This document shows, piece after piece, positions 14,634-46,393 of a stretch of 46,393 bases of DNA; the stretch's first letter is position 1; each line of letters opens with the position of its first letter. Source of the stretch: a virus; the IMG/VR virus record IMGVR_UViG_3300047564_001494, positions 1-46,393 of that record. One strand, 5' to 3'. The translations under genes and the position numbers were made by a program. The notes beneath the pieces were generated by a model that was given only the letters and a program-made list of their open reading frames with translations, made no database searches and was not told the DNA's origin.

Positions 14634-15650
14634 TCAGGCGCGGGCCGACTGCAGCTCGATAGCGGCAGCAGGGTTGAGAGTGCCACAACCCATGGCCAGA
14701 CGGCCAAGAATCACATCGCCTTGATAAAGAACGCTCACGTCGCCGCTGGTCACTTGGACCTGGGGACCGATAGCTTCCACAACACCAGCAGCATCTTTCT
14801 GGTAGATCAGACCGCAGTGGGTCGAAAAGTCGCCGCTGTAATCATTGTTCTCACCGCTCACGCTGCCGACAGTACCGGCCAGGAAAGGCAGGTTGTTGGA
14901 ACGCTTGATGTTGATACCAGCAATCTGGTACAGGCCATCACCGCTGTTCAGGTTGCCCTGGGAGGCACCGAACTCACGGTTGAGGATGTTGGTATCAACT
15001 TGGCTGATCAGGGCGTAGTACTGACGAGGGGCCAGCACAGCACAACGACCAGAGGTAGGAACATTCTTCTCATCCATGATGGAAGCAGCTTCAAAGAAGG
15101 CGTCCACGAGGGCTTGAGCGTCATACTCCTTCTGAGCACCCAGTTGGATCACCGAACCGCCGGGCTCAGGGCCAGGGGAGGCAGTGATGGGATGGGCTTC
15201 ACGAGCAGCCTTGGCGATCATACGGAAGATCTTCTTATCGTATGCTTCGGCAAGAGCGTGGCCGATTTTTTTGCTTATCTCGCCGCGCAGATCGTAGTGA
15301 GCCAGAGTCTCATCCAGGTCATACACGAAAGCAGAGCTGATGAGAAGGTCATCACAGACGATGGTCTTTTCTGCCACCGGGGGATCACCACTACCCAGGA
15401 TCGGAGTGCCGGGGGTGTGGTAACCAGCCTGCATACGACCGGTGAAGATGAACTGCATGGCCTTCCCATTCTTCAGGGTGCGGCGCATGATGGTGTCACG
15501 AGCCACGCAAGCGGACTCATAAGCCTTGAACAGTTCGCCCGAGAAGAGCTTCAGATAAGTTGCGTACTTAGTATCATACGCCTGAGAGCCGGAGGTATTA
15601 GATACCGCCTTATTAAGAGTACCGAGTACGGTTTGATTAGTGTTAGCCAC
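14634..15650 (-). CDS. Major capsid protein (T7 gp10-like)
   Basis: A 338-residue protein that matches the T7 gp10 family (T7 gp10A is 345 residues): N-terminus ANTNQTVLGTLNKAV, then LKLFSGELFKAYESACVARD, KNGKAMQFIFTGRM, and near the C-terminus GLIYQKDAAGVVEAIGPQVQ. It has the HK97-type fold in known relatives. The start is GTG (VANTNQ), with no ATG nearby in frame. It is preceded by a 320-base structured non-coding leader and followed by three small genes and a terminator, so it heads its own strongly expressed unit. Confidence 0.95.
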   Translation of the reverse strand: MANTNQTVLGTLNKAVSNTSGSQAYDTKYATYLKLFSGELFKAYESACVARDTIMRRTLKNGKAMQFIFTGRMQAGYHTPGTPILGSGDPPVAEKTIVCDDLLISSAFVYDLDETLAHYDLRGEISKKIGHALAEAYDKKIFRMIAKAAREAHPITASPGPEPGGSVIQLGAQKEYDAQALVDAFFEAASIMDEKNVPTSGRCAVLAPRQYYALISQVDTNILNREFGASQGNLNSGDGLYQIAGINIKRSNNLPFLAGTVGSVSGENNDYSGDFSTHCGLIYQKDAAGVVEAIGPQVQVTSGDVSVLYQGDVILGRLAMGCGTLNPAAAIELQSARA

Positions 15651-15656
15651 TGTTAG

Positions 15657-15976
15657 AAAAGAGAGAGTTGTTAAAGTTCTCCCTAACCGGTTAGGAATTC
15701 ACATGGACAAGAAGTCATGTGCATTCGATTAAAGTGTTTGTGTCTGTCTCTCCAGACTGTCAATGGCTAAAGGGTGTCCGCCTTAGCGGGCCTTGAGCCA
15801 AGAGGAGTTAAGTCCGACATTGAGGTGCTTAACTCCCGTTGTGGACCTTCGAGAAACGAAGAGCCAGAACTGACGGAATCCATCCGACGTAGGTGCGCTA
15901 ATAGCAGCAACCCGCTCCATACCCAATTCCTTGGGGTTTACATCGCCGTTATAAAGCCACGGTCGCGGGCATTACA
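15657..15976 (-). promoter_or_regulatory. Structured leader upstream of the major capsid gene
   Basis: A 320-base gap in an otherwise gapless late region. Read on the minus strand it has several inverted repeats: a 9-bp perfect stem GGAGTTAAG/CTTAACTCC with a 16-base loop (about 15803-15836), then GGCTcAAGG/CC(C)TTtAGCC enclosing CCGCTAAGGCGG, a GTCTG/CAGAC hairpin, CACATG/CATGTG, and the palindrome CCTAACCGGTTAGG (about 15683-15696). These suggest a processed or stabilised 5' leader, plus probably a phage promoter for the capsid unit. I cannot identify the promoter sequence itself. Confidence 0.6.
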
Positions 15977-17155
15977 TCAAAGAATTCTGAAGAAGTTATT
16001 GATGTAATAGACAAGCTGATGCTCAGGAACCGTGTGGTTCACAATCGTCTTTCTAGGGTCAGTCAGAATAGATTGATAGTACAAAGATTTGCCAACTATC
16101 TGACCACCAGAGTAAAGGATAGATGCTGAGATGAGGTTAATATTAAAGGCTCTAGGTGCAGCGGTAAGTCGACTACGCTTGACAAGGTTCGCCGGTACAC
16201 CAGCAATACTGAATAGCCTTGGACTAGCAACAAGCCGTCGTGTCAACAGGAGATTGGCTGCACGATAGACACCAGTGAAGGTGCCCTTATCGGCAGGCAG
16301 TATACGAGAGACTACCTTGGTGATGGTTGCAGCTACACCAGCTATAGAGAAGCCACCAGGAGCTGCAGTCAGCTTTCTCCCTACAACAGGTGAGGCAGAA
16401 ACACCTGCAACTGTGATCGTACCTTTGGCAGCAAGGATCTCAGCTTGATGGATGATGCCAGCATCAACGCCAACAACGGAGAAGGTTCCTTCGTCAGCAG
16501 CTAGGTTTCTACCCTTAGCAAATCCTGCAGCATTACCAACAATACTACGAGTACCTAGATCAGCAGTCAGTACAACCGTCTTATCCCTAAGCTCAACAAC
16601 CCAACTACGGAAGGCACTACTAGCATTAACTGTGACGTTAGTACTTGCCCAAGTAGTCCGTGTTCCGTTGGTATCATGACCAGCTGCTTCCGTACCTGCA
16701 AAGGCACGGTTCACCATTGTGCCAGGAGCTAGGTCTACGTTAGTAGCAGTCCGGTGACCGGCAAAGGCAGCGACCCAACTTGTGTTGTCAGTACGTTGAA
16801 GGTTTAATGCGGGGTAGTTAACTGTAGTAGTTGCTGAACCACTACCACCAATAGAGGCACCACGTGTGGCACCCCTATACACATGACAAATCAGCTCAGT
16901 AGCGTTTGTCCAGGTACCACTAGTAGTTGTAGTAGCTGTAGCTATCGCAAAATGGAGACGGCTCGAGTTGGTATTACCACCGCTAGAACCAATCTGAGTC
17001 CATGTAGGCACTGTGCCCCCAGCGGTTGGGGCTGTAGGCACAGTGTTACTACCATCTCGATACGCAAAGATAAGGATCAGGTCTCCAACTTGGTGAGCCG
17101 GAATGGTGACCGTTGTTGTTGCTGCGCCTTGTGCGCCAATATAAGAAACGGTCAT
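15977..17155 (-). CDS. Tandem-repeat virion protein
   Basis: A 392-residue protein. Residues 1-195 resemble a beta-sandwich domain seen in phage and bacterial surface proteins, with VSYIGAQGAATTTVTIPAHQ at the start, a WTQIGSS segment and RSWVVELRDK at the end. From about residue 196 to 360 there are about seven repeats of 22-23 residues with the pattern L-x-A-x-x-G-x-F-S-I-A-G-V-x-A-x-I, for example LTAAPGGFSIAGVAATI. Such repeats are common in phage fibres and head appendages. It is the last gene before the capsid leader in an accessory island and may form a head or tail appendage. Confidence 0.78.
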   Translation of the reverse strand: MTVSYIGAQGAATTTVTIPAHQVGDLILIFAYRDGSNTVPTAPTAGGTVPTWTQIGSSGGNTNSSRLHFAIATATTTTSGTWTNATELICHVYRGATRGASIGGSGSATTTVNYPALNLQRTDNTSWVAAFAGHRTATNVDLAPGTMVNRAFAGTEAAGHDTNGTRTTWASTNVTVNASSAFRSWVVELRDKTVVLTADLGTRSIVGNAAGFAKGRNLAADEGTFSVVGVDAGIIHQAEILAAKGTITVAGVSASPVVGRKLTAAPGGFSIAGVAATITKVVSRILPADKGTFTGVYRAANLLLTRRLVASPRLFSIAGVPANLVKRSRLTAAPRAFNINLISASILYSGGQIVGKSLYYQSILTDPRKTIVNHTVPEHQLVYYINNFFRIL

Positions 17156-17164
17156 TGCATTGCC

Positions 17165-17602
17165 TTAGCTTACAGTTAGGATTCCGTTTGTTTGATCAAG
17201 GTCGACGGTAAGAGTTTCACCAGCAGCGACAGTAACCGAGGAGCCATAATCCCAGTAACCAATGAGCGGGTCTGCAGGAGAGGTAGGCGTGTCGTTGAAC
17301 AACACGGCATAGCGAGCTGTAAAACCTGCTCCTGAGCCCGTCCATACAGGATCAGTACCACCAGTGAGTTTGAATGTACCGCTAGTCTCTGCACCAGTAA
17401 TGGTTCCAACAGAGATACCACCAGCCGTGTATCCACCACCAGTTGTCAGTTCAGTGACGTTGGCAAGTACCGTGTGAGTGGCAACGTTGGGAGTCGTGTT
17501 AGTCAGCGCAACCTTTAGGACGTGAGTTGTACCGGTCTGCAATTGATGCACACCAGAGCAAAGATCCTCAGGAAAGGTATTGTATTTAACAAAGGCAGCC
17601 AT
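17165..17602 (-). CDS. Phage structural protein, probably appendage
   Basis: A 145-residue beta-rich protein that begins MAAFVKYNTFPEDLCSGVHQ and has a Gly/Thr-rich centre (TTGGGYTAGGISVG) and an aromatic turn YWDYGSS, ending in TVDLDQTNGILTVS. Similar small proteins are frequent in tailed phages of aquatic bacteria, next to capsid or fibre genes. I infer a virion role from composition and context, between the collagen-like gene and the repeat protein. Confidence 0.72.
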   Translation of the reverse strand: MAAFVKYNTFPEDLCSGVHQLQTGTTHVLKVALTNTTPNVATHTVLANVTELTTGGGYTAGGISVGTITGAETSGTFKLTGGTDPVWTGSGAGFTARYAVLFNDTPTSPADPLIGYWDYGSSVTVAAGETLTVDLDQTNGILTVS

Positions 17603-17604
17603 AA

Positions 17605-18165
17605 TTAGTTATTTTGAACAGTAATGCCACTGGATACCCAGCCGCGTTGTTGAGTAGTACCGGATTCATTGGAGTGGTAGACACGGCCAGGAGGTCCTGA
17701 TGGACCAGGCTTTCCTTGAGGCCCCTGCTTACCCTCCCTGCCTTGCGGTCCTGGAGGGCCTGGGATCCCACGCTCACCAGGCTCACCTGGCTTGCCGTCC
17801 CGACCATCAACACCTGGCAAACCTTCAGGTCCAATCATCGACACACCCATCGGCCAGCCATCGTGACCCTTCGGCCCGTAGATAGTCCAATGCATGTAGT
17901 CGATATAGAACTGACCCGCTGTGCCTAGGAATGGGGACGGTGGAGCGGTGCCGCTAAGGATCCCTAAACCATCCATGCCATCCTTACCTGGCTCTCCCTG
18001 CTCTCCCTTTTCACCACGCAAGCCAGGCTTGCCTTGCTCACCAGCAGGGCCAGGTGGACCGGGCTCCCCATCGAAGCCGGGCTCACCTGGATCTCCTGGC
18101 GGGCCAGGTGGTGCATACTCAGGGACAAACGACAGAATGCCAGTAATTGGATTCAGTCTAAACAT
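17605..18165 (-). CDS. Collagen-like virion protein
   Basis: A 186-residue protein with two blocks of Gly-X-Y triplets (residues about 20-68 and 112-162), rich in Pro at X and in Lys/Glu/Gln at Y, separated by a compact segment (GTAGQFYIDYMHWTIYGPKG). Collagen-like blocks in phage proteins form trimeric stalks of fibres and appendages. The N-terminal MFRLNPITGILSFVPEY and the C-terminal residues are non-collagen caps. It overlaps the upstream gene by one base. It probably forms a trimeric fibre that carries or spaces the neighbouring structural proteins. Confidence 0.85.
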   Translation of the reverse strand: MFRLNPITGILSFVPEYAPPGPPGDPGEPGFDGEPGPPGPAGEQGKPGLRGEKGEQGEPGKDGMDGLGILSGTAPPSPFLGTAGQFYIDYMHWTIYGPKGHDGWPMGVSMIGPEGLPGVDGRDGKPGEPGERGIPGPPGPQGREGKQGPQGKPGPSGPPGRVYHSNESGTTQQRGWVSSGITVQNN

Positions 18166-18386
18166 TAGGAAATACGAGTAACGCTAGTTAGATATCCATT
18201 GCCGTCATATGTCATGGTGACAGTGGATACAATCTGACCGCTAGCACCACCAGCCCTGTAGACGACAGTTGTAGGGTTACCGTTTGCATCATTGGTAACC
18301 CCGATGAAGTCGTGCTCAGGAACACTGAGGCCGGTCTCCATCTGACGGGATGAGAACCGACCCGTTTTAATGTTCTGAGATGTCAT
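18165..18386 (-). CDS. Small structural-island protein, unknown
   Basis: A 73-residue protein starting MTSQNIKTGRFSSRQMETGL. The second half is a beta-hairpin-like region with TMTYDGNGYLTSVTRIS, similar to small YD-type strands. It overlaps the collagen-like gene by one base and lies three bases behind the 58-residue gene. It may be a small fibre cap or linker protein, but I do not recognise a family. Confidence 0.65.
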   Translation of the reverse strand: MTSQNIKTGRFSSRQMETGLSVPEHDFIGVTNDANGNPTTVVYRAGGASGQIVSTVTMTYDGNGYLTSVTRIS

Positions 18387-18389
18387 AAA

Positions 18390-18566
18390 TTACCAAGTGG
18401 TAGGAGAGACTTCCAAAGTCCCAGGCTTTGCAACCTGAGCCTTGGGGCTATATCGAGTAATTGCTGCCCCGGTGTAGCCATAGATGAAACCACGAGCAGC
18501 GCTGCTAGGGGTCACATAAAGAATCGAAGCAACCGAAGAGATCTTCGGATCAAAAGCTTTTGCCAT
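18390..18566 (-). CDS. Small structural-island protein, unknown
   Basis: A 58-residue protein, MAKAFDPKISSVASILYVTP through a Gly/Tyr segment (ARGFIYGYTGAAI) to a Pro/Thr-rich end. The start is taken at this ATG rather than twelve codons upstream, because this leaves one base after the RlpA-like stop rather than a long overlap. Composition suggests a small beta-structured virion component. Function is not known. Confidence 0.6.
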   Translation of the reverse strand: MAKAFDPKISSVASILYVTPSSAARGFIYGYTGAAITRYSPKAQVAKPGTLEVSPTTW

Positions 18567-18567
18567 G

Positions 18568-18873
18568 TTACTTAATTCGTGTGATGGTAACTTGACCAAC
18601 ACCCTCCCTATCTAAACCAATTGCTCTCGCAGCAGCACGACTGAGGTCAAGCTCACGACCATGAATAAAAGGGCCACGATCATTGATTCGTACAGTAGTG
18701 CAAAGTTTGGTGCGTTTGTTGCAGACACGAAGACGGGTTCCAAATGGAAGCGACCGGTGGGCTGCAGTCATTGAGTTCTGGTTAAAGATCTCACCAGAGG
18801 CAGTGGGTCTTCCGTGATACGGAGCGCCATACCATGAGGCAAGTGAAGCGAGGGTAAGTGTCAGAGAAAGCAT
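18568..18873 (-). CDS. RlpA-like double-psi beta-barrel protein
   Basis: A 101-residue protein that is essentially one RlpA domain: ASWYGAPYHGRPTASGE, then MTAAHRSLPFGTRLRVCNK, VRINDRGPFIHGRELDLS and a final AARAIGLDREGVGQV. Glu28 and Asp65 fall at the positions of the acidic residues that matter in lytic RlpA proteins. The first ten residues (MLSLTLTLAS) are hydrophobic and could act as a short signal or anchor, without a lipobox Cys. RlpA proteins cleave or bind denuded peptidoglycan glycans. In this place, between scaffold and capsid genes, it is probably a virion-borne wall-penetration factor. Confidence 0.87.
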   Translation of the reverse strand: MLSLTLTLASLASWYGAPYHGRPTASGEIFNQNSMTAAHRSLPFGTRLRVCNKRTKLCTTVRINDRGPFIHGRELDLSRAAARAIGLDREGVGQVTITRIK

Positions 18874-18921
18874 GAGTTCATTGCAAAGGACTTTTATATT
18901 GCTTACTTCTTTGTTCCCAAG

Positions 18922-19128
18922 TTAGACTTCTTTGAGGAAGCCCGGCAGTTGTTGTCCACCCTTATTCTTTAGCTTGCGCTCCTGAAGACGCCGAAGCATC
19001 TCAGGGCTTGCATTAGGGATACCCTTATAGCTTTGACCGCCAGGGATATAAGGTTCTTGCAAATCAAAGCTTGCGCCTTTTGCAATACGGAGCTGTCGGT
19101 TCTTCCCCACTTTTGTGGGGCGAGCCAT
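18922..19128 (-). CDS. Small basic protein next to the scaffold gene
   Basis: A 68-residue basic protein (MARPTKVGKNRQLRIAKGAS, then PGGQSYKGIPNASPEMLRRL and a Lys-rich end KNKGGQQLPGFLKEV). The ATG is two bases behind the scaffold stop. It is probably translated with the scaffold. Positive charge would suit contact with DNA or scaffold during head assembly, but this is inference and no family is recognised. Confidence 0.65.
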   Translation of the reverse strand: MARPTKVGKNRQLRIAKGASFDLQEPYIPGGQSYKGIPNASPEMLRRLQERKLKNKGGQQLPGFLKEV

Positions 19129-19130
19129 GA

Positions 19131-19910
19131 TTAATAGTTAAGGTTAGAACGTTCAAGTTTGTCGTAGACATCCTGTCGATAAGCAGGATCATTGTCATAC
19201 CTAGGGTCTTGCATCGCACGGACAACCTCTGCTTGGCTACGGTATACATCCATAGACTGTGCAGCTTTGCCCGTAAGCATCTGACCCTCGTATCCAACTG
19301 AGTCTTTAAATCGGTAGCTCAATGCCTGAATTGCAAAGTAGATAGCCTGAGGATCTCCTTTATCCATGACTGAGTCATAGACTTTGATCTCATCAGGAGT
19401 GAGGTTTTGAGAAGCCCAGGAGATCATGTTGTTGTACTCCTGTTCACCACCAACTACACCTTTCATCTCAGCGATATCTTCGCTGGACATCTGGTACACC
19501 GGTTCCGGTTCAGGTGACTCTTGCCGATAAGCAAGGAACATATCTGCAATGTCAGATGCAGACATACCATCAAGTGCAGCCAAAGTCTCTTGACTGAACT
19601 CACCACCATCAGCTTCTTCAGCGAGACGATTCAGGAAGGAGTAATCGATAGGCTCATCTACCTCCCTGGTCTCTTCCTCAACAGGCTCCTCAGTCTGAGT
19701 CGCTTCTTCAGGTTCTCGAGACCCAAGCTTCCGTTGGAGTTCAACGTAGGCTTGCTCTAGTTCTTGAGCATCACGATACTTGCCAGCAAGCAGATTGTTC
19801 TGCTCCTGTTCAAGGCGCTCACCGATTTCAAGGTTTTCTTGATCCCGCTGTTCCGACTCCTCAATAGCAGCCGGGTCATCGCTGGGATCATACGTCAGAT
19901 TGAATGCCAT
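19131..19910 (-). CDS. Capsid assembly scaffolding protein (T7 gp9-like)
   Basis: A 259-residue, strongly acidic and helical protein (many EE and EQEQ runs, residues 15-110), between portal and capsid genes. T7 gp9 (307 residues) is the acidic scaffold that directs procapsid assembly and then leaves. The C-terminal half is less charged (GYEGQMLTGKAAQSMDVYRS) and would contain the capsid-binding end. Family assignment rests on position, length and composition. Unlike T7, seven genes separate it from the capsid gene. Confidence 0.85.
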   Translation of the reverse strand: MAFNLTYDPSDDPAAIEESEQRDQENLEIGERLEQEQNNLLAGKYRDAQELEQAYVELQRKLGSREPEEATQTEEPVEEETREVDEPIDYSFLNRLAEEADGGEFSQETLAALDGMSASDIADMFLAYRQESPEPEPVYQMSSEDIAEMKGVVGGEQEYNNMISWASQNLTPDEIKVYDSVMDKGDPQAIYFAIQALSYRFKDSVGYEGQMLTGKAAQSMDVYRSQAEVVRAMQDPRYDNDPAYRQDVYDKLERSNLNY

Positions 19911-23028: not shown

Positions 23029-24413
23029 TCTGCACAATCACACATAGGTTTACCGGAATCTTCAAGCAGTGATTCCAGATAGTTCTCCACTTCAGCAGCA
23101 TCCAAAGCTGCGTAAGCATCGGACTTATCTTGGGTATCAGACATGACTTGAAGAGAATAATAAAGGGAGGTCTGCGGAGATTGCAGCCACTCTTCAATAA
23201 ACACCTCGTCATAGAAGACCACATCGGACCAGCTATTAAACGAGTAACCGTGAAGAAGTCCCGTCTTATCAAGCAAAGAGATGATGCCGTTTGCCACACC
23301 CATGTAGGCATCCCAGCCCACCTCAGATGCGATCTCAACATCACCATAGTTAAAGCTTTCTACTCCGAACGTACCGCTATCTCGATCCACCCATCGTGAG
23401 ATAGGAGGAGCAATCTCCGGCGTCGTTGTAAAGCCATCCAGGTCGGAGTATCGATAGGAGCAAGATGCCGTTGGCGCAATAGCAAACGCTCGGACCATTC
23501 CGTTGCTACGAGCAATGGCGGCAGCACCTTCAATAGCACGTTTAAATTCAGTAGCGAGAACACCTGCAGGAGAGTCATCAAAGGTCTTGAGAGCCTCCGC
23601 AAAGGCGCTGTAAGAGACGTTGTATCGACGTAGGAGGTTGGCTAGGCCAAGCATCCCGAGACCCACCTGGCGGTCAATCTCAGGGCTTAGGTACTCACCG
23701 CTTTCACCGACTCCGGTCTTGGCATGGAGAGCACACAGCTCCTGCATCCCACGAGAGAATGCCTCTTGCAGATCTCCGATTTCACAGGCTCCAAGGTTGA
23801 CGTGTTGGAGCAGGCAGGTTCCCCGACTGGGGAGGTAGACCTCGAGGCAGACATTTCCATAGATTCGTTGGCCGAATGTATCGACCTTAGTTTTGTTGAG
23901 CCAAATGTCACCACGTTTGATGCCAAGGATTACAGCTTCTTTGACATCTTGCGGAGCAGTCCGCCACCAATGTGGATTAATGTTGACACACCGCTTGACC
24001 CACGGAAGATCAGCTCGACTAGCAGTGACAAACTCAAGTATGTCAGGGTGCTGAAGATCAAGATGACATACAACAGCTCCATTCTTATAGACGCCTCCGC
24101 GCCTCAGGATTTCATTCAGGGTTGAGTAGATCTTGGCGAAGGACACAGGGCCTGACGCCACAAGTCCTCGTCCATTTGAATCTCCTTTTGGACGTAGTTT
24201 AGATAGGTGTACAGCAACGCCTGCTCCGTATCGGAGAGCGTGGGAGACAAACCTCCAGCTTGCTTCGATTCCATTGGGACCTTCCATTTCATCCTCCACC
24301 ACGAACACGGTGCAGGACACAGGTAGACGGGATGTCGGATCATCAATCCAACTTTGAACCCGGCCAGTACGGGCGATAAGTTCTTTATTCACAGTAGTTT
24401 CAGACAAGGTCAA
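23025..24413 (-). CDS. nrdA: Ribonucleotide reductase class I large subunit, minimal form
   Basis: A 462-residue NrdA, much shorter than the E. coli enzyme (761), without the N-terminal ATP cone. Catalytic residues are present: Cys34 (LPVSCTVF), the radical-site group Asn187-Val-Cys189-Leu-Glu191, Cys200 (RGTCLLQ), the Tyr pair in TSLYYSLQ near the C-terminus, and a C-terminal Cys458-Asp-Cys460 for redox exchange. The Tyr pair identifies class I, not class II. The annotated start is TTG at 24413. GTG at 24392 is an alternative. It overlaps the MazG-like gene by 14 bases and is coupled to nrdB. Loss of the ATP cone suggests loss of dATP feedback inhibition. Confidence 0.92.
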   Translation of the reverse strand: MTLSETTVNKELIARTGRVQSWIDDPTSRLPVSCTVFVVEDEMEGPNGIEASWRFVSHALRYGAGVAVHLSKLRPKGDSNGRGLVASGPVSFAKIYSTLNEILRRGGVYKNGAVVCHLDLQHPDILEFVTASRADLPWVKRCVNINPHWWRTAPQDVKEAVILGIKRGDIWLNKTKVDTFGQRIYGNVCLEVYLPSRGTCLLQHVNLGACEIGDLQEAFSRGMQELCALHAKTGVGESGEYLSPEIDRQVGLGMLGLANLLRRYNVSYSAFAEALKTFDDSPAGVLATEFKRAIEGAAAIARSNGMVRAFAIAPTASCSYRYSDLDGFTTTPEIAPPISRWVDRDSGTFGVESFNYGDVEIASEVGWDAYMGVANGIISLLDKTGLLHGYSFNSWSDVVFYDEVFIEEWLQSPQTSLYYSLQVMSDTQDKSDAYAALDAAEVENYLESLLEDSGKPMCDCAE

Positions 24414-24780
24414 TCAAAGAGGGTTCAAAATAGGTCGGGCCTTTAAGGATCTTTCCATCCTCACGGCGAATAGGCTTACCATCCACACCAACCTTGCTCA
24501 TGTTGCTTTCATGCACACGGTTGTAAGCACTCTGCAGATCCCAATCAAACGCTGCAGCCATCTGATGACAGACATACACCAGATCAGCCAGCTCTTTAAG
24601 GAGATGCTCTCGTGCTCGCTTGTTAGTAATGTCTTCCTTCAGATCCAGGTAGGCATGGGCGACTTCAAGGTGCTCCTCATCGATCAAATTCTGCTGAAGA
24701 TTCAAAGAGGTAGTCGTCAATCCTTGCGGCAGCTCGTATGTTGTCCTGAATTCGCTGGCTGCTGTTTCGTAGAAACTCAC
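24400..24780 (-). CDS. MazG-like nucleotide pyrophosphohydrolase
   Basis: A 126-residue protein from the GTG at 24780: VSFYETAASEFRTTYELPQG, then the metal-binding pattern IDEEHLEVAHAYLD and, further on, HLLKELADLVYVCHQMAAAF, the EExxE...ExxD signature of the all-alpha NTP-PPase (MazG) superfamily. The upstream part of the longer open frame has no family pattern, so I place the start here. Phage MazG-like enzymes hydrolyse nucleoside triphosphates or related alarmones and favour nucleotide recycling. The gene overlaps DUF3310 by 104 bases and nrdA by 14. Confidence 0.8.
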   Translation of the reverse strand: MSFYETAASEFRTTYELPQGLTTTSLNLQQNLIDEEHLEVAHAYLDLKEDITNKRAREHLLKELADLVYVCHQMAAAFDWDLQSAYNRVHESNMSKVGVDGKPIRREDGKILKGPTYFEPSLIDLV

Positions 24781-24964
24781 GTTCGTTTTCAAGGTAGTGG
24801 ATTGCTTTTTCGAGATCGGCCAGTGCGTCATCGGTTTTGAATCCAGCACGGCAGATGTATTTGATGGCATTGCCAAGGTGATAGTTGAGTTTTTGGTCAC
24901 GAATAAAGTCCCAGACTTCTACGGTTCCTCGTTTGTAGTAGCCGGGACCTTTGGCATTGGCCAT
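24677..24964 (-). CDS. DUF3310 protein (SaV-like)
   Basis: A 95-residue protein of the DUF3310 family, frequent in T7-like and other phages: HLGNAIKYICRAG around residues 29-42 and DLEKAIHYLENE at 49-61, with a basic C-terminal tail. In T7 a DUF3310-like domain is part of gp1.7, which affects thymidylate metabolism. Its place before MazG and RNR genes fits a nucleotide-related role. The C-terminal 34 residues are read in another frame as the start of the MazG-like protein. Confidence 0.82.
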   Translation of the reverse strand: MANAKGPGYYKRGTVEVWDFIRDQKLNYHLGNAIKYICRAGFKTDDALADLEKAIHYLENEREFLRNSSQRIQDNIRAAARIDDYLFESSAEFDR

Positions 24965-25155
24965 TGTTTAACAAGATTAGATACGGTGTTTGAAAGAACA
25001 AAGTTCTGATGTTGTAGTGCTATGAAGATCGTGATGATGTCTTCCTTCTTGGCCTCAGGCAGCAGATCCTGATAGCGCCTCAGCCTGAAGCTCTGTTCCA
25101 CGGTCAGCTCTAACACTGGTGGCGGGGGTCCAAAGGATTGGGGTGTTGTTGTCAT
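24919..25155 (-). CDS. NblA-like phycobilisome degradation protein, candidate
   Basis: A 78-residue protein starting at the ATG at 25155 (MTTTPQSFGPPPPV). The core is ELTVEQSFRLRRYQDLLPEA, followed by KKEDIITIFIALQHQNFVLS and NTVSNLVKQW. This matches the NblA layout: ELsLEQeFkLR helix, then a second helix with a hydrophobic/Gln pattern, and about 60 residues in total. NblA directs Clp protease to phycobilisomes. In phage infection this would dismantle light-harvesting complexes and supply amino acids. It overlaps the exonuclease gene by 101 bases and DUF3310 by 46. The assignment is from pattern memory and needs a profile search. Confidence 0.55.
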   Translation of the reverse strand: MTTTPQSFGPPPPVLELTVEQSFRLRRYQDLLPEAKKEDIITIFIALQHQNFVLSNTVSNLVKQWPMPKVPATTNEEP

Positions 25156-25849
25156 GGTCAAAGTTTTCGTATTGAAGGATCTTGGCAAGACGTGCATTGC
25201 GAAGTGCATCTTCTTCCGTCAGATCTTTGCTTTCAAAAGCATTGACCACGGTCTCCCACGTACACCCGTGCTGATCCAGCAGTGCCGTAGCACGTTTGAT
25301 ACCAATGCTTGGGATGCCTGCGTAGCCATCGGTCTGGTCTCCGCTCATCGTCTGTACGAAGTGCCAGCGATCCCCCTCCTCCTTGGTGATTTCGGTCACA
25401 GGATTCGTTAGGTCAAACAAGAGACCAGGGATCTGCCGCATGTCTTTGTCAGGTGAGCAGATGATGTGAGCAGCCTCTGCTTCGATGGGGTCAGTAGCAA
25501 AGATGCCAAGCGCATCGTCAGCTTCCAGACCATCGACCATCATGGTGATGTAATTATCACCACACCAGTTCAGCAGCCGTTTGTACCCGCAGGGCTTCTT
25601 CCTATTTCGATGCCCCTTGTAATCCGAGGAAATTTTTTTCCTGAAATTTATTGGGCTTGAGAAGAACAGGATGAAGTCATCGAACATGCCCATGCACTCA
25701 GCAATGGACATCAGCTCCCGTTGGAACATGTCCAGGACCTCGTTGAACCGGCTGGTGACAACGATCAAGTCGTCTCCGTAGTCAACCTCGTCCTCACAGG
25801 CAGCACAGCTTTTGTAGGCCAGGTAATCGGCGTCAATTAGAAGCGTCAT
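25055..25849 (-). CDS. 5'-3' exonuclease (T7 gp6-like)
   Basis: A 264-residue FEN/T7 gp6-type nuclease. The N-terminal acidic site is MTLLIDADYLAYKSC (Asp7, Asp9 region). Later acidic patches are VDGLEADDALGIFA and SPDKDMRQIPG, and the helix-hairpin-helix part is TDGYAGIPSIGIKRATALL, typical of FEN nucleases. It degrades host DNA and removes RNA primers at concatemer junctions. The gene begins with an overlap of four bases with the small basic gene upstream. Its last 100 bases also encode the start of the NblA-like gene. Confidence 0.92.
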   Translation of the reverse strand: MTLLIDADYLAYKSCAACEDEVDYGDDLIVVTSRFNEVLDMFQRELMSIAECMGMFDDFILFFSSPINFRKKISSDYKGHRNRKKPCGYKRLLNWCGDNYITMMVDGLEADDALGIFATDPIEAEAAHIICSPDKDMRQIPGLLFDLTNPVTEITKEEGDRWHFVQTMSGDQTDGYAGIPSIGIKRATALLDQHGCTWETVVNAFESKDLTEEDALRNARLAKILQYENFDHDNNTPILWTPATSVRADRGTELQAEALSGSAA

Positions 25850-25989: not shown

Positions 25990-26385
25990 TTAATACCAGA
26001 ACATTTCCCAACCTTCGGGAGCCTTGCCAAATGGCCAGCGAACCTTCCAAGTTTCAGGATTAACCAGAACTCGGTGCTCCACTGCACCAGCTTTACCAGG
26101 CGAGTAATACCTATTAGACCGGGGATCCCACTCCTCAGTCTTTACATCAACATGAAGGACTTCACCGCAATGGCAGAGAACAATGTCTGTCTTGCCTGTA
26201 CACCCAACGTTTTTAAAAACCTCAGCACCGCGCTTTAAAGCTTCAGTGATGACAACATATTCAGCAATATCACCAAGCCTGCTGGTATCAGTGAGTGTTA
26301 GCCCACGTGGCTCCGGTAGTGGCTTCAGCGGCGATAGGTATTCGGAGGTTGTAGTGCTCTCCGGCTTGAGCTGCTGCGAGTTCAA
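25990..26385 (-). CDS. PD-(D/E)XK nuclease-like protein
   Basis: A reading frame of 131 residues behind the DNA polymerase gene. The core RLGDIAEYVVITEALKRG has Glu42, then a Cys/Gly turn KTDIVL with Asp67, and VDVKTEEW with Asp80-x-Lys82, which is the PD-(D/E)XK arrangement seen in small cyanobacterial and phage endonucleases. Two Cys (C71, C73 in LCHCGE) are unusual. The start is uncertain: the longest frame begins with TTG at 26385 and overlaps the polymerase by 98 bases, and no ATG or GTG follows in frame before the core. It may be a Holliday-junction or repair nuclease. Confidence 0.68.
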   Translation of the reverse strand: MNSQQLKPESTTTSEYLSPLKPLPEPRGLTLTDTSRLGDIAEYVVITEALKRGAEVFKNVGCTGKTDIVLCHCGEVLHVDVKTEEWDPRSNRYYSPGKAGAVEHRVLVNPETWKVRWPFGKAPEGWEMFWY

Positions 26386-27559
26386 GATTAAACATTAAGT
26401 TGTCCGCATGAGCGGGGTTACATTCAAACTGAAGCTCGTCATGGACAAATGCCAGTTGATCAGCTTCGATATTCATTTGTTTGATCTGATCGTTAGCGAT
26501 GACCATCCACCGCTTAGCAATGACACCAGCTCCTGATTGAAGCAGATAGTTCAGTGCTTTGTGGGACCCATCAACAGTGATGCGCCTTCCGTCAATCGAA
26601 TTGATGTGCCCATCTTTTTCGACTTTTCGCTTGACTGCAGCAACAAAGTCACTAAGACCTTCAATTGCATCAAGATACGCTTTCCGTATTTCGGCCCCCT
26701 TTTTTCGAGCTTTATCGGCTGAAAGCTGAGGGTCATAGGAATATCCAATCTTTTCGTTCCCAGCTCCATAAAGGAAGGCATAGGTAACGGTTTTAACAAG
26801 CTTACGGCTAATGCCAATCTTGTCGGCATTAACTTGGTGGATATCACCATTGAGCAGGATTTCAGAATACCTGCCATCGTCATAACGAGCAAGGTAATGC
26901 GCGAACATCCGCAGCTCGATGCCGCTAAGGTCCGCCCCAACCATGCATAATCCTGGAGTAGCAGTGAAGAGTCGTCTGAATCGTTCATCCGATGGGACTT
27001 GTCCTAGGTTTGGATTTCGATGAGCACAACGGTGGGTGTTAGTAGCAACCGAACAGTGGTGATGAACTCGGCCATTTCGACAAAGCTTCTGCCAGGCATT
27101 GACGCCTTCCGACAACATGCCTAGCTGCTTTTTCATTTCCAAACACTTGAAGAAGTCAAGTGCCAATGGAGTGCCGATCTCAGTAAGCACTACCTCATCG
27201 ATAGTAGGCTTACCTTTATCTGTGAATAGAGTTGGCTTCCAGCCATAGAACGTCTGCATCAACCATGCGATGTGGTCTCGACTGGTTGCATTAAGGTCCT
27301 TGATGCGCGTAGAAGGGCATCCAGTGAAATATCCTTGGGTCTTGTTAGGACGACGAGGAGTAAACTCGCCTCCCGCAACGAAAGGATGTTGCTTTCTAAG
27401 AGATGCCTGCAGCGATTCAAGTGAAGATCGTAGTTCTGATTCCAACTCATGAGCGGATCGTTCGTCAAATTGCCATCCATGGATTTCCTGTTTAGTCAGG
27501 ATTTCTGCAACGCGATGTTCTAGTCCGACCCATTCAGGTATTTGTGGAAATGCTTCCAT
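26288..27559 (-). CDS. DNA polymerase A, polymerase domain (split gene)
   Basis: A 423-residue protein with only the polymerase part of a T7 gp5-like enzyme. It begins with sequence homologous to the middle of gp5 (VGLEHRVAEILTKQEIHGWQ). Motif A is ADLSGIELRMFA with Asp210; motif B is KTVTYAFLYGAG with Tyr260 at the position equivalent to E. coli Phe762; motif C is FVHDELQF with Asp374 and Glu375. The proofreading domain is a separate gene upstream that overlaps by 40 bases in another frame. The ATG lies inside that gene. The two proteins should assemble into a functional polymerase. Confidence 0.93.
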   Translation of the reverse strand: MEAFPQIPEWVGLEHRVAEILTKQEIHGWQFDERSAHELESELRSSLESLQASLRKQHPFVAGGEFTPRRPNKTQGYFTGCPSTRIKDLNATSRDHIAWLMQTFYGWKPTLFTDKGKPTIDEVVLTEIGTPLALDFFKCLEMKKQLGMLSEGVNAWQKLCRNGRVHHHCSVATNTHRCAHRNPNLGQVPSDERFRRLFTATPGLCMVGADLSGIELRMFAHYLARYDDGRYSEILLNGDIHQVNADKIGISRKLVKTVTYAFLYGAGNEKIGYSYDPQLSADKARKKGAEIRKAYLDAIEGLSDFVAAVKRKVEKDGHINSIDGRRITVDGSHKALNYLLQSGAGVIAKRWMVIANDQIKQMNIEADQLAFVHDELQFECNPAHADNLMFNLELAAAQAGEHYNLRIPIAAEATTGATWANTH

Positions 27560-28035
27560 AGCTTGGTGGTAACTTGTACGTCTTGAACCATGTAGTCCTC
27601 CATGTCTTGGGACCAGTCTTTCCAGTCAGTCTGCTTGGCAAACTCACCTTTGTATTCACCTAGGCGATAGCCATAGGCTTCCAAAGAATGACGGCCGTAC
27701 AACTGCAACGGCATTCGTGGCAGGTTGCGCTTTTGATCTATCTTGAGAATGTCAGGATGAAAAAGCCTAGAAAGCACAAGAGTGTCAAGACACCTAGGTG
27801 GTTGGAACCATCCATAGAATTTCTGAATTACTGGCACGTCATAGTTGATGATGTTGTGCCCAATGATCGTGTCAGCCTCTTCCAACATCGTGATAGCACG
27901 AGATATTGGAGCCTGGCTGCCTTCGTCATTGAAGACATAAATCTCACCGTTATCAAGGTCTTTGATAGCAACACAGTGAATAGTGGAAACGTTGTTGTAA
28001 AGACCGTCGGTTTCAAGGTCGAAGATCAGGTTCAT
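27520..28035 (-). CDS. DNA polymerase A, 3'-5' exonuclease domain (split gene)
   Basis: A 171-residue DEDDy proofreading exonuclease, equivalent to the N-terminus of T7 gp5. Exo I is IFDLETDG with Asp6 and Glu8, Exo II is GHNIINYDVPV with Asp66, and Exo III is YMVQD with Tyr148 and Asp152. It ends with the helix that in T7 leads on to the polymerase domain (LWKHFHKYLNGSD, then stop). The polymerase ORF starts 40 bases before this stop in the -1 frame. It can act as separate subunit or a frameshift may join the two. It overlaps the previous small gene by four bases. Confidence 0.92.
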   Translation of the reverse strand: MNLIFDLETDGLYNNVSTIHCVAIKDLDNGEIYVFNDEGSQAPISRAITMLEEADTIIGHNIINYDVPVIQKFYGWFQPPRCLDTLVLSRLFHPDILKIDQKRNLPRMPLQLYGRHSLEAYGYRLGEYKGEFAKQTDWKDWSQDMEDYMVQDVQVTTKLWKHFHKYLNGSD

Positions 28036-33717: not shown

Positions 33718-34596
33718 TCAGATCGCATTAATGGCGTCGTAACGCGCTTGGTCGGTGACCTTGGCGTACCGCAATGTGGTGGTCACATCGGAATGGCCCA
33801 TCAGTCCCATCAGGGTGCGGATCGGCACACCGGCTTCCGCGCACCATGTGGCGAACGTGTGGCGCAGGGAGTGGAAGGTCCACTTGTCGTCTTTCTTAAC
33901 AGAGTAATTCCTTACTTTTTTGAAAGCACGAATCAGTTGGTCCTTACCACCAGGCCAGTCATCTCCAAACAGCAAAGTATTGCGCGATGCGTACTCTGTC
34001 CGTTGGGTCATGATGGGCTTGATGCGTTCGTGCAGTGGAACCGCACGGAAGTTCTTGCCCTTGGTCTGGAAGCCATCGCGACCACCGATGTAGATCTGAC
34101 CTGTTCCCAGGTCAACATCCTGCATCCGTAGCTTGAGCAGCTCCCCCTGGCGCATCCCTGTGTAAGCAGCAACCACGATGATCGCGGCCACATCATCCCG
34201 AGAGAACGGGTCGATGGCAGCCTCATACATCTGGTCCACCTCCTCTTTTGTAAACCACGTCAGACGGTGTTCACCCTCCTTGCGTCGCTTGAATTTGGGT
34301 GGCGTGATGTCAGTCACCCCCATCGAGGAGCAGTGATTCAATACGGTTGAAACCGCGCTGATCACTCGGTTGATGGTGGAGTCGGACATGTTGCGTTCCT
34401 CTTCCAAATCGATACACGCTTGGTTCATCACCATCGGCGTGATTTTGGCTAGTGGAAAAGAGTTGCCAACACAATTCGTGAAGTGTTTGCAGTTGTACGT
34501 GTTGGTAGCAACAGAAGCACCGTGCCTCCATGAGTCCCTGGTACGAAAGGTGAAGTCGACCGCATCACCCCAGGTCATAACGGATTTAGTGGCCAT
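33718..34596 (-). CDS. int: Tyrosine-type site-specific integrase
   Basis: A 292-residue phage integrase. The catalytic residues are all visible: Arg near residue 147 in YTGMRQGELLKL, His-x-x-Arg near 243 in FHSLRHTFATWC, His near 266 in LMGHSDVTTT, and the nucleophile Tyr near 275 in LRYAKV. The N-terminal part is a core-binding domain (NTYNCKHFTNC, INRVISAVSTVLNHC). With attP next to it, the phage could integrate in a host tRNA-Leu gene. It overlaps the MarR-like gene by 11 bases and so is co-translated with it. Confidence 0.95.
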   Translation of the reverse strand: MATKSVMTWGDAVDFTFRTRDSWRHGASVATNTYNCKHFTNCVGNSFPLAKITPMVMNQACIDLEEERNMSDSTINRVISAVSTVLNHCSSMGVTDITPPKFKRRKEGEHRLTWFTKEEVDQMYEAAIDPFSRDDVAAIIVVAAYTGMRQGELLKLRMQDVDLGTGQIYIGGRDGFQTKGKNFRAVPLHERIKPIMTQRTEYASRNTLLFGDDWPGGKDQLIRAFKKVRNYSVKKDDKWTFHSLRHTFATWCAEAGVPIRTLMGLMGHSDVTTTLRYAKVTDQARYDAINAI

Positions 34597-34978
34597 CGAG
34601 AATCTCCTTGATTTTGGAAACCATGGTGTGGCCCTCTTCTGTCAAGGTGACAATGCGCCTCCTTGCATTAAGAGGATCCACCTTCTTGATAATTAAGCCC
34701 ATACCGGGTTTACCTAAGCGATGGTGTGTACTAAGCCAATCTGTATTGCGACTTGTGCTATTAGGTGATAAACCTAAATCATCCTGAATCGCCTGTAGAT
34801 TACAAGGATCATGAGATGCGATATAGCAAAAGATCGAAACAAGTTGGCCGGGTACTTCAAAGTCTTTGACCCGAAACAACTCGTGAACCATGCACAGACG
34901 CCACATGAGATCGTCTGTTTTTTGGTTGAGTAGTGGATGAGATGTTTCGGACACTAGACCGGTTGAAGAACCAATCAC
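34586..34978 (-). CDS. MarR-like winged-helix regulator
   Basis: A 130-residue protein with a winged-helix pattern typical of MarR: QLVSIFCYIASHDPCNLQAI, then LGLSPNSTSRNTDWL (recognition helix) and a wing LIIKKVDPLNARRRIVTLTE, ending in EGHTMVSKIKEIL. The start is GTG at 34978. ATG at 34906 would also keep the whole DNA-binding domain. Located upstream of int and overlapping it, it may control int expression or the early region. Whether it acts as a lysogeny repressor cannot be told from sequence. Confidence 0.75.
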   Translation of the reverse strand: MIGSSTGLVSETSHPLLNQKTDDLMWRLCMVHELFRVKDFEVPGQLVSIFCYIASHDPCNLQAIQDDLGLSPNSTSRNTDWLSTHHRLGKPGMGLIIKKVDPLNARRRIVTLTEEGHTMVSKIKEILDGH

Positions 34979-45826: not shown

Positions 45827-46393
45827 TTAGTTAGCTTCCAGGGCAGCGACTTTGGCTTCAAGGGTTTCGATCTTGGCAATGGCTTCTTGCAGCGCAGCTG
45901 TCAGCAGGGGCACCAGCTTGGATGGGTCGATGCCTTGGTAGATGGGGTTGCCGTCATCGTCAACAGCATCCTTTTCGCCAGTGACACACTCAGGGACAAC
46001 TGCCTGGGCTTCGTGGGCGATGAAGCCATCAACCGTCTTGCCCGGATCCGCAGTGAAGTTGAAGCGGTGGACTTGAAGCTGGTTTACGCGATCGATGGCG
46101 CCGGTTAGCGAGACAACGTTTTCCTTTAGGCGGTAATCGGAATTAGTAGCGAAGGTTGTTATTGTTGTTGTGGAAGTAACAGTGCCAACGTTTGCACTGC
46201 CGGATTTAATGCTCCAATGATAGTAAGTGCCACTAGTTGGGTTAGTGCATTGGGTAGTTATTGCCCATCTACTTGGAGCATCGTTAACTTGAAATAAGCC
46301 TGCGCCAAGGTCTGCACTGTTATTGATACTAACTACGCCATTGCTATCAATCCTCATCCGCTCCGTCGGGCTGCTCGCTCCGTCGGCGGTGGT
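45827..46393 (-). CDS. Second tail fibre with peptidase S74 chaperone, 3' part
   Basis: The last 188 codons of a fibre gene that begins beyond the right edge. It has the S74 chaperone: NSDYRLKENVVSLTGAIDRV, then HRFNFTADPGKTVDGFIAHE and AQAVVPECV, with a closing coiled coil (QEAIAKIETLEAKVAALEAN). The Ser-Asp junction is the cleavage site in this family. The N-terminal stretch (TTADGASSPTERMRI) is nearly the same as in the fibre at 622-1659, also at DNA level (46352-46393 compared with 1171-1212). Confidence 0.88.
   Translation of the reverse strand, partial: TTADGASSPTERMRIDSNGVVSINNSADLGAGLFQVNDAPSRWAITTQCTNPTSGTYYHWSIKSGSANVGTVTSTTTITTFATNSDYRLKENVVSLTGAIDRVNQLQVHRFNFTADPGKTVDGFIAHEAQAVVPECVTGEKDAVDDDGNPIYQGIDPSKLVPLLTAALQEAIAKIETLEAKVAALEAN

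Follow-up and report, generated by a model that had tools for sequence, protein, structure and literature searches.

The locus considered here raises the question of whether a short open reading frame on the minus strand of a viral genome, most of it buried in the genes on either side, is a genuine nblA gene, and if so, what such a gene would accomplish for a phage that carries no other evident gene for the light-harvesting apparatus of its host. The window is the whole stretch of DNA that was analysed, 46,393 nucleotides, which is the full IMG/VR virus record IMGVR_UViG_3300047564_001494. The initial annotation had claimed a 78-residue NblA-like frame that has 101 bases in common with the end of the exonuclease gene and 46 bases in common with the DUF3310 gene; the frame is present, running from ATG to TAG over 78 codons (237 bases), its peptide is identical to the one originally quoted, and both overlaps are exact by coordinates (Table 1). 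The order of genes is RNA polymerase, single-strand binding protein, endonuclease, primase/helicase, split DNA polymerase, exonuclease, nblA, DUF3310, MazG and ribonucleotide reductase, and therefore nblA is placed in the replication module. It is very probable that this reading frame represents a true nblA gene, carried by a T7-like cyanophage of clade B (MPP-B).

Table 1. Coordinates of nblA, its parts and the adjacent genes in the window.
Feature	Position	Strand	Evidence or remark
nblA, 78-aa NblA-family proteolysis adaptor (viral, assigned by family)	24919..25155	-	PF04485; PDB 3cs5; 233 viral-contig stretches; core dN/dS 0.06
Overlap of nblA N-terminal part with exonuclease C-terminal tail	25055..25155	-	101 bases; the constrained frame is nblA
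nblA-only stretch, most of helix 2	24965..25054	-	90 bases; dN/dS 0.06; model helix 37-64
Overlap of nblA C-terminal tail with start of DUF3310 gene	24919..24964	-	46 bases; tail varies in sequence and length
T7-like 5'-3' exonuclease (gp6-like)	25055..25849	-	PF02739 E=2.5e-10; phrog_107 E=2e-62
DUF3310 protein	24677..24964	-	PF11753 E=5.8e-13
MazG-like nucleotide pyrophosphohydrolase (start codon uncertain)	24400..24900	-	phrog_671 E=4e-31

Several other features of the window were observed. The DNA polymerase is split over two overlapping frames (26288-28035), one with the 3'-5' exonuclease part and the other with the polymerase part; the split is annotated likewise in S-TIP37 and P-SSP7, with the remark that either a frameshift or a split gene may be involved. 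An integrase gene and a transcription-regulator-like gene (33718-34596 and 34586-34978) lie upstream of the RNA polymerase gene. At each end of the record (45827-46357 and 622-1677) lies a tail-fibre-like gene; the two both match phrog_18345 and phrog_9942, and may be either paired fibre genes or a single region that the linear ends of the record have cut in two.

Judging from sequence comparisons, the protein is NblA at the family level. The score with the Pfam model of NblA (PF04485) is only just above the curated cut-off (25.2 bits versus 25, the alignment covering positions 1-49 of the 50 in the profile; 25.4 bits in the genome-scale search), and the same model is matched by all 40 of 40 aligned relatives with E <= 0.01. 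A phmmer search of the PDB finds the crystal structure of a cyanobacterial NblA (3cs5, E=6e-5), with which the window protein shares 17 of 55 residues (~31% identity) in an ungapped alignment that includes the PP-P...L-VEQ-F-L motif; the profile of the relatives also finds 1ojh, weakly. The helix-loop-helix core and the N-terminal motif (PP-P...VEQ-F-L) are thus common to the window protein and cyanobacterial NblA, but the window protein has a longer, proline-containing N-terminus and a longer, variable C-terminal tail, and the C-terminal SNLVKQW, which shows little or no variation among phages, differs in the cyanobacterial sequence. The N- and C-terminal motifs of NblA are those through which ClpC and phycobiliproteins, respectively, would be bound. 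An AlphaFold2 model predicts an NblA-like helix-loop-helix consisting of helices at residues 19-34 and 37-64 (pLDDT about 88-94 within the block; pTM 0.45; tails of low confidence). The solved NblA is a dimer that forms a four-helix bundle; Foldseek found no match in the PDB for the short hairpin monomer model, and so the evidence for the fold rests on secondary structure and sequence. Since the score with the NCBIfam equivalog model NF045916 is 26.9 bits versus a cut-off of 100 and Foldseek gave no PDB match, the protein is best described as a divergent viral member of the family and not as an equivalog according to NF045916. Thus the original assignment to NblA, for which a profile search and a structure prediction had been proposed as checks, is upheld by the PF04485 score above cut-off, the match to 3cs5 and the predicted helix-loop-helix. 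The phage alignment was also used to scan bacterial genome contigs; matches were limited to two contigs of a single metagenome bin, and these are possibly phage contigs that were binned with it.

NblA is an adaptor that joins phycobilisome subunits to the ClpC chaperone, so that the Clp protease receives the antenna as its substrate (PMC7966870, PMC4103541). By analogy with the family, the phage protein would be expressed together with the replication genes during infection, its two-helix form would dimerise, bind phycobilisome subunits and tether them to the host ClpC, and the host Clp protease would then dismantle the antenna; the likely benefit would be that amino acids become available for making phage proteins and that the dying cell absorbs less light. 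Inactivation of nblA in a T7-like cyanophage reportedly resulted in slower infection and less loss of phycobilisomes, in a study published in Nature in 2025. Phage-borne NblA is also found in the freshwater Microcystis/Planktothrix phages Ma-LMM01, MaMV-DC and PaV-LD, which belong to other phage lineages, and there it is expressed in infection and phycobilins are lost (PMC9602691, PMC4103541).

There is a small chance that the window encodes instead an NblA-fold protein that acts away from the phycobilisome, steering host Clp proteolysis toward different proteins or serving as an anti-adaptor, as might be suggested by its divergence from cyanobacterial NblA and by the occurrence of relatives in Prochlorococcus podoviruses such as P-SSP7, of which the copy is below the Pfam search threshold. 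Prochlorococcus hosts are not known to possess phycobilisomes. However, a match to the NblA model is retained in the window protein as well as in close relatives from Synechococcus-type phages, conservation of the core is strong, and a marine viral NblA (of metagenomic origin and different sequence) brought about phycobilin loss in a freshwater cyanobacterium, according to the account of Nadel et al. 2019 given in PMC9602691. Degradation of the phycobilisome is the preferred reading of the function of this gene.

The reality of the gene was assessed by its conservation and by the pattern of selection. Relatives of nblA were found by tblastn in approximately 37 phage records, nearly all of them T7-like phages of Synechococcus and Prochlorococcus (the search also returned three chance hits). 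A relative is also encoded in 233 viral-contig stretches, the best 80 of which were retrieved; at the loci that were checked, the exonuclease gene ends inside nblA and a DUF3310-like gene starts near the end of nblA. A profile made from 39 relatives, excluding the window, identified the nblA frame with E=9.5e-43 among the 1038 stop-to-stop frames of the window, the next best being 0.018. Among 59 sequences, the core of nblA outside the exonuclease overlap has a dN/dS ratio of 0.06, indicating strong purifying selection, and within the exonuclease overlap the pN/pS ratio is 0.40 in the nblA frame versus 1.86 in the exonuclease frame. Therefore, it is the nblA frame on which selection acts here, and the C-terminal tail of the exonuclease is largely dictated by nblA. 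The C-terminal tail of NblA itself is variable (pN/pS 0.80). The exonuclease overlap is open in 54 of 54 relatives, compared to approximately 42 expected from shuffled exonuclease codons; an open overlap by itself is weak evidence for a gene, but the codon-level pattern of selection is strong evidence. An NblA-family protein is conserved at one locus in this group of phages, under purifying selection. Although 147 of the 237 bases are shared with other genes, and although chance alone would often leave the exonuclease overlap open (63% for the window), a spurious frame produced by codon usage in the exonuclease and DUF3310 genes has next to no probability, and such a chance frame is already refuted by the profile result just given, by a 90-base non-overlapping core under strong constraint, by an overlap that is constrained in the nblA frame and not in the exonuclease frame, and by homology to the NblA family and to a solved NblA.

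Comparison with the relatives favours a start codon at 25155 or close by: in several, an ATG is located a few codons to either side of this position, and GTG stands exactly there in the three nearest contigs that were checked. A second in-frame ATG is located upstream, at 25209. No Shine-Dalgarno-like sequence was found before the ATG of nblA, and no sigma-70-like promoter was found near nblA in a promoter scan; the latter is unsurprising because the phage has its own RNA polymerase. The overlaps would be ordinary compaction, with the nblA frame beginning inside the exonuclease gene and passing its stop codon, and together with the lack of a Shine-Dalgarno-like sequence they suggest probable translational coupling.

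The RNA polymerase has 80% identity to that of S-SRP01, 57-61% to those of Synechococcus clade B phages, and 40-41% to those of the clade A phages S-CBP2 and S-CBP42; by these identity values, rather than by a tree, the phage appears to belong with T7-like clade B (MPP-B). The nblA genes of clade B phages (S-SRP01, S-TIP37, S-RIP2 and S-CBP1/3/4; PHROG 27006) are found at the same site after the exonuclease gene as in the window, and the window protein has 49-80% amino acid identity to the copies from clade B Synechococcus phages. Marine and estuarine podovirus nblA genes form a separate cluster in a phylogenetic tree (PMC9602691), and the same paper attributes to Nadel et al. 2019 the prediction of nblA in 14 cyanopodovirus isolates. 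Thus the nblA gene is already known, as are its general effect and its occurrence in T7-like cyanophages, and its presence in this virus is a sound but expected find, as closely related marine viruses are known to carry nblA at the same place. The initial annotation also anticipated that automatic annotation may miss the gene, and this is borne out: nothing is annotated at the nblA position of S-RIP2, no separate nblA is annotated in S-TIP37, where part of the match falls within the annotated exonuclease, and in other phage records the gene is labelled "hypothetical protein". The paper on S-SRP01 makes no mention of nblA. A gene that targets photosynthesis thus lies unannotated within overlaps in public cyanophage genomes, and is therefore undercounted in surveys of annotated auxiliary genes.

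Nearly all clade B phages possess psbA and hli (PMC4646655, PMC9381782), which are usual but not strictly defining. In the window record there is no profile match to psbA or hli (PF00124, PF00504), in searches of which the controls worked, in agreement with the earlier statement that no clear light-harvesting function other than nblA is present. Neither gene was found in the complete genome of S-SRP01 or in the nearest metagenomic relatives of the window, three of which are at least 44 kb long, though these contigs may be incomplete. In contrast, psbA and at least a weak match to hli are present in S-TIP37, in P-SSP7 and in three more distant contigs that carry nblA. The NblA model is matched by 19 of the 20 records compared for psbA and hli, the exception being P-SSP7, in which a syntenic NblA relative (2480-2791) is kept that has no match to the model at the threshold used. 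The hli and psbA genes of S-TIP37 occupy the slot that separates the capsid assembly gene from the capsid gene; in S-SRP01, this slot is taken up by an RlpA-like gene and hypothetical genes. The same slot in the window, from capsid assembly to major capsid (14634-19910), contains lipoprotein-like, collagen-like tail-fibre and minor tail-like genes.

These comparisons raise the prospect, which we consider evenly balanced, that clade B of the T7-like cyanophages includes a branch, possibly for the most part freshwater, that lacks psbA and hli, retains nblA under strong selection, and dismantles the antenna without supporting photosystem II. Its members would be the window virus, the reservoir (freshwater) isolate S-SRP01 and the metagenomic relatives, the freshwater reading being tentative. 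If such a branch exists, its strategy toward photosynthesis would be unlike that of its marine sister phages, and a set of phages that possess nblA but neither psbA nor hli would be a natural contrast by which to ask whether removal of the antenna pays without support of photosystem II.
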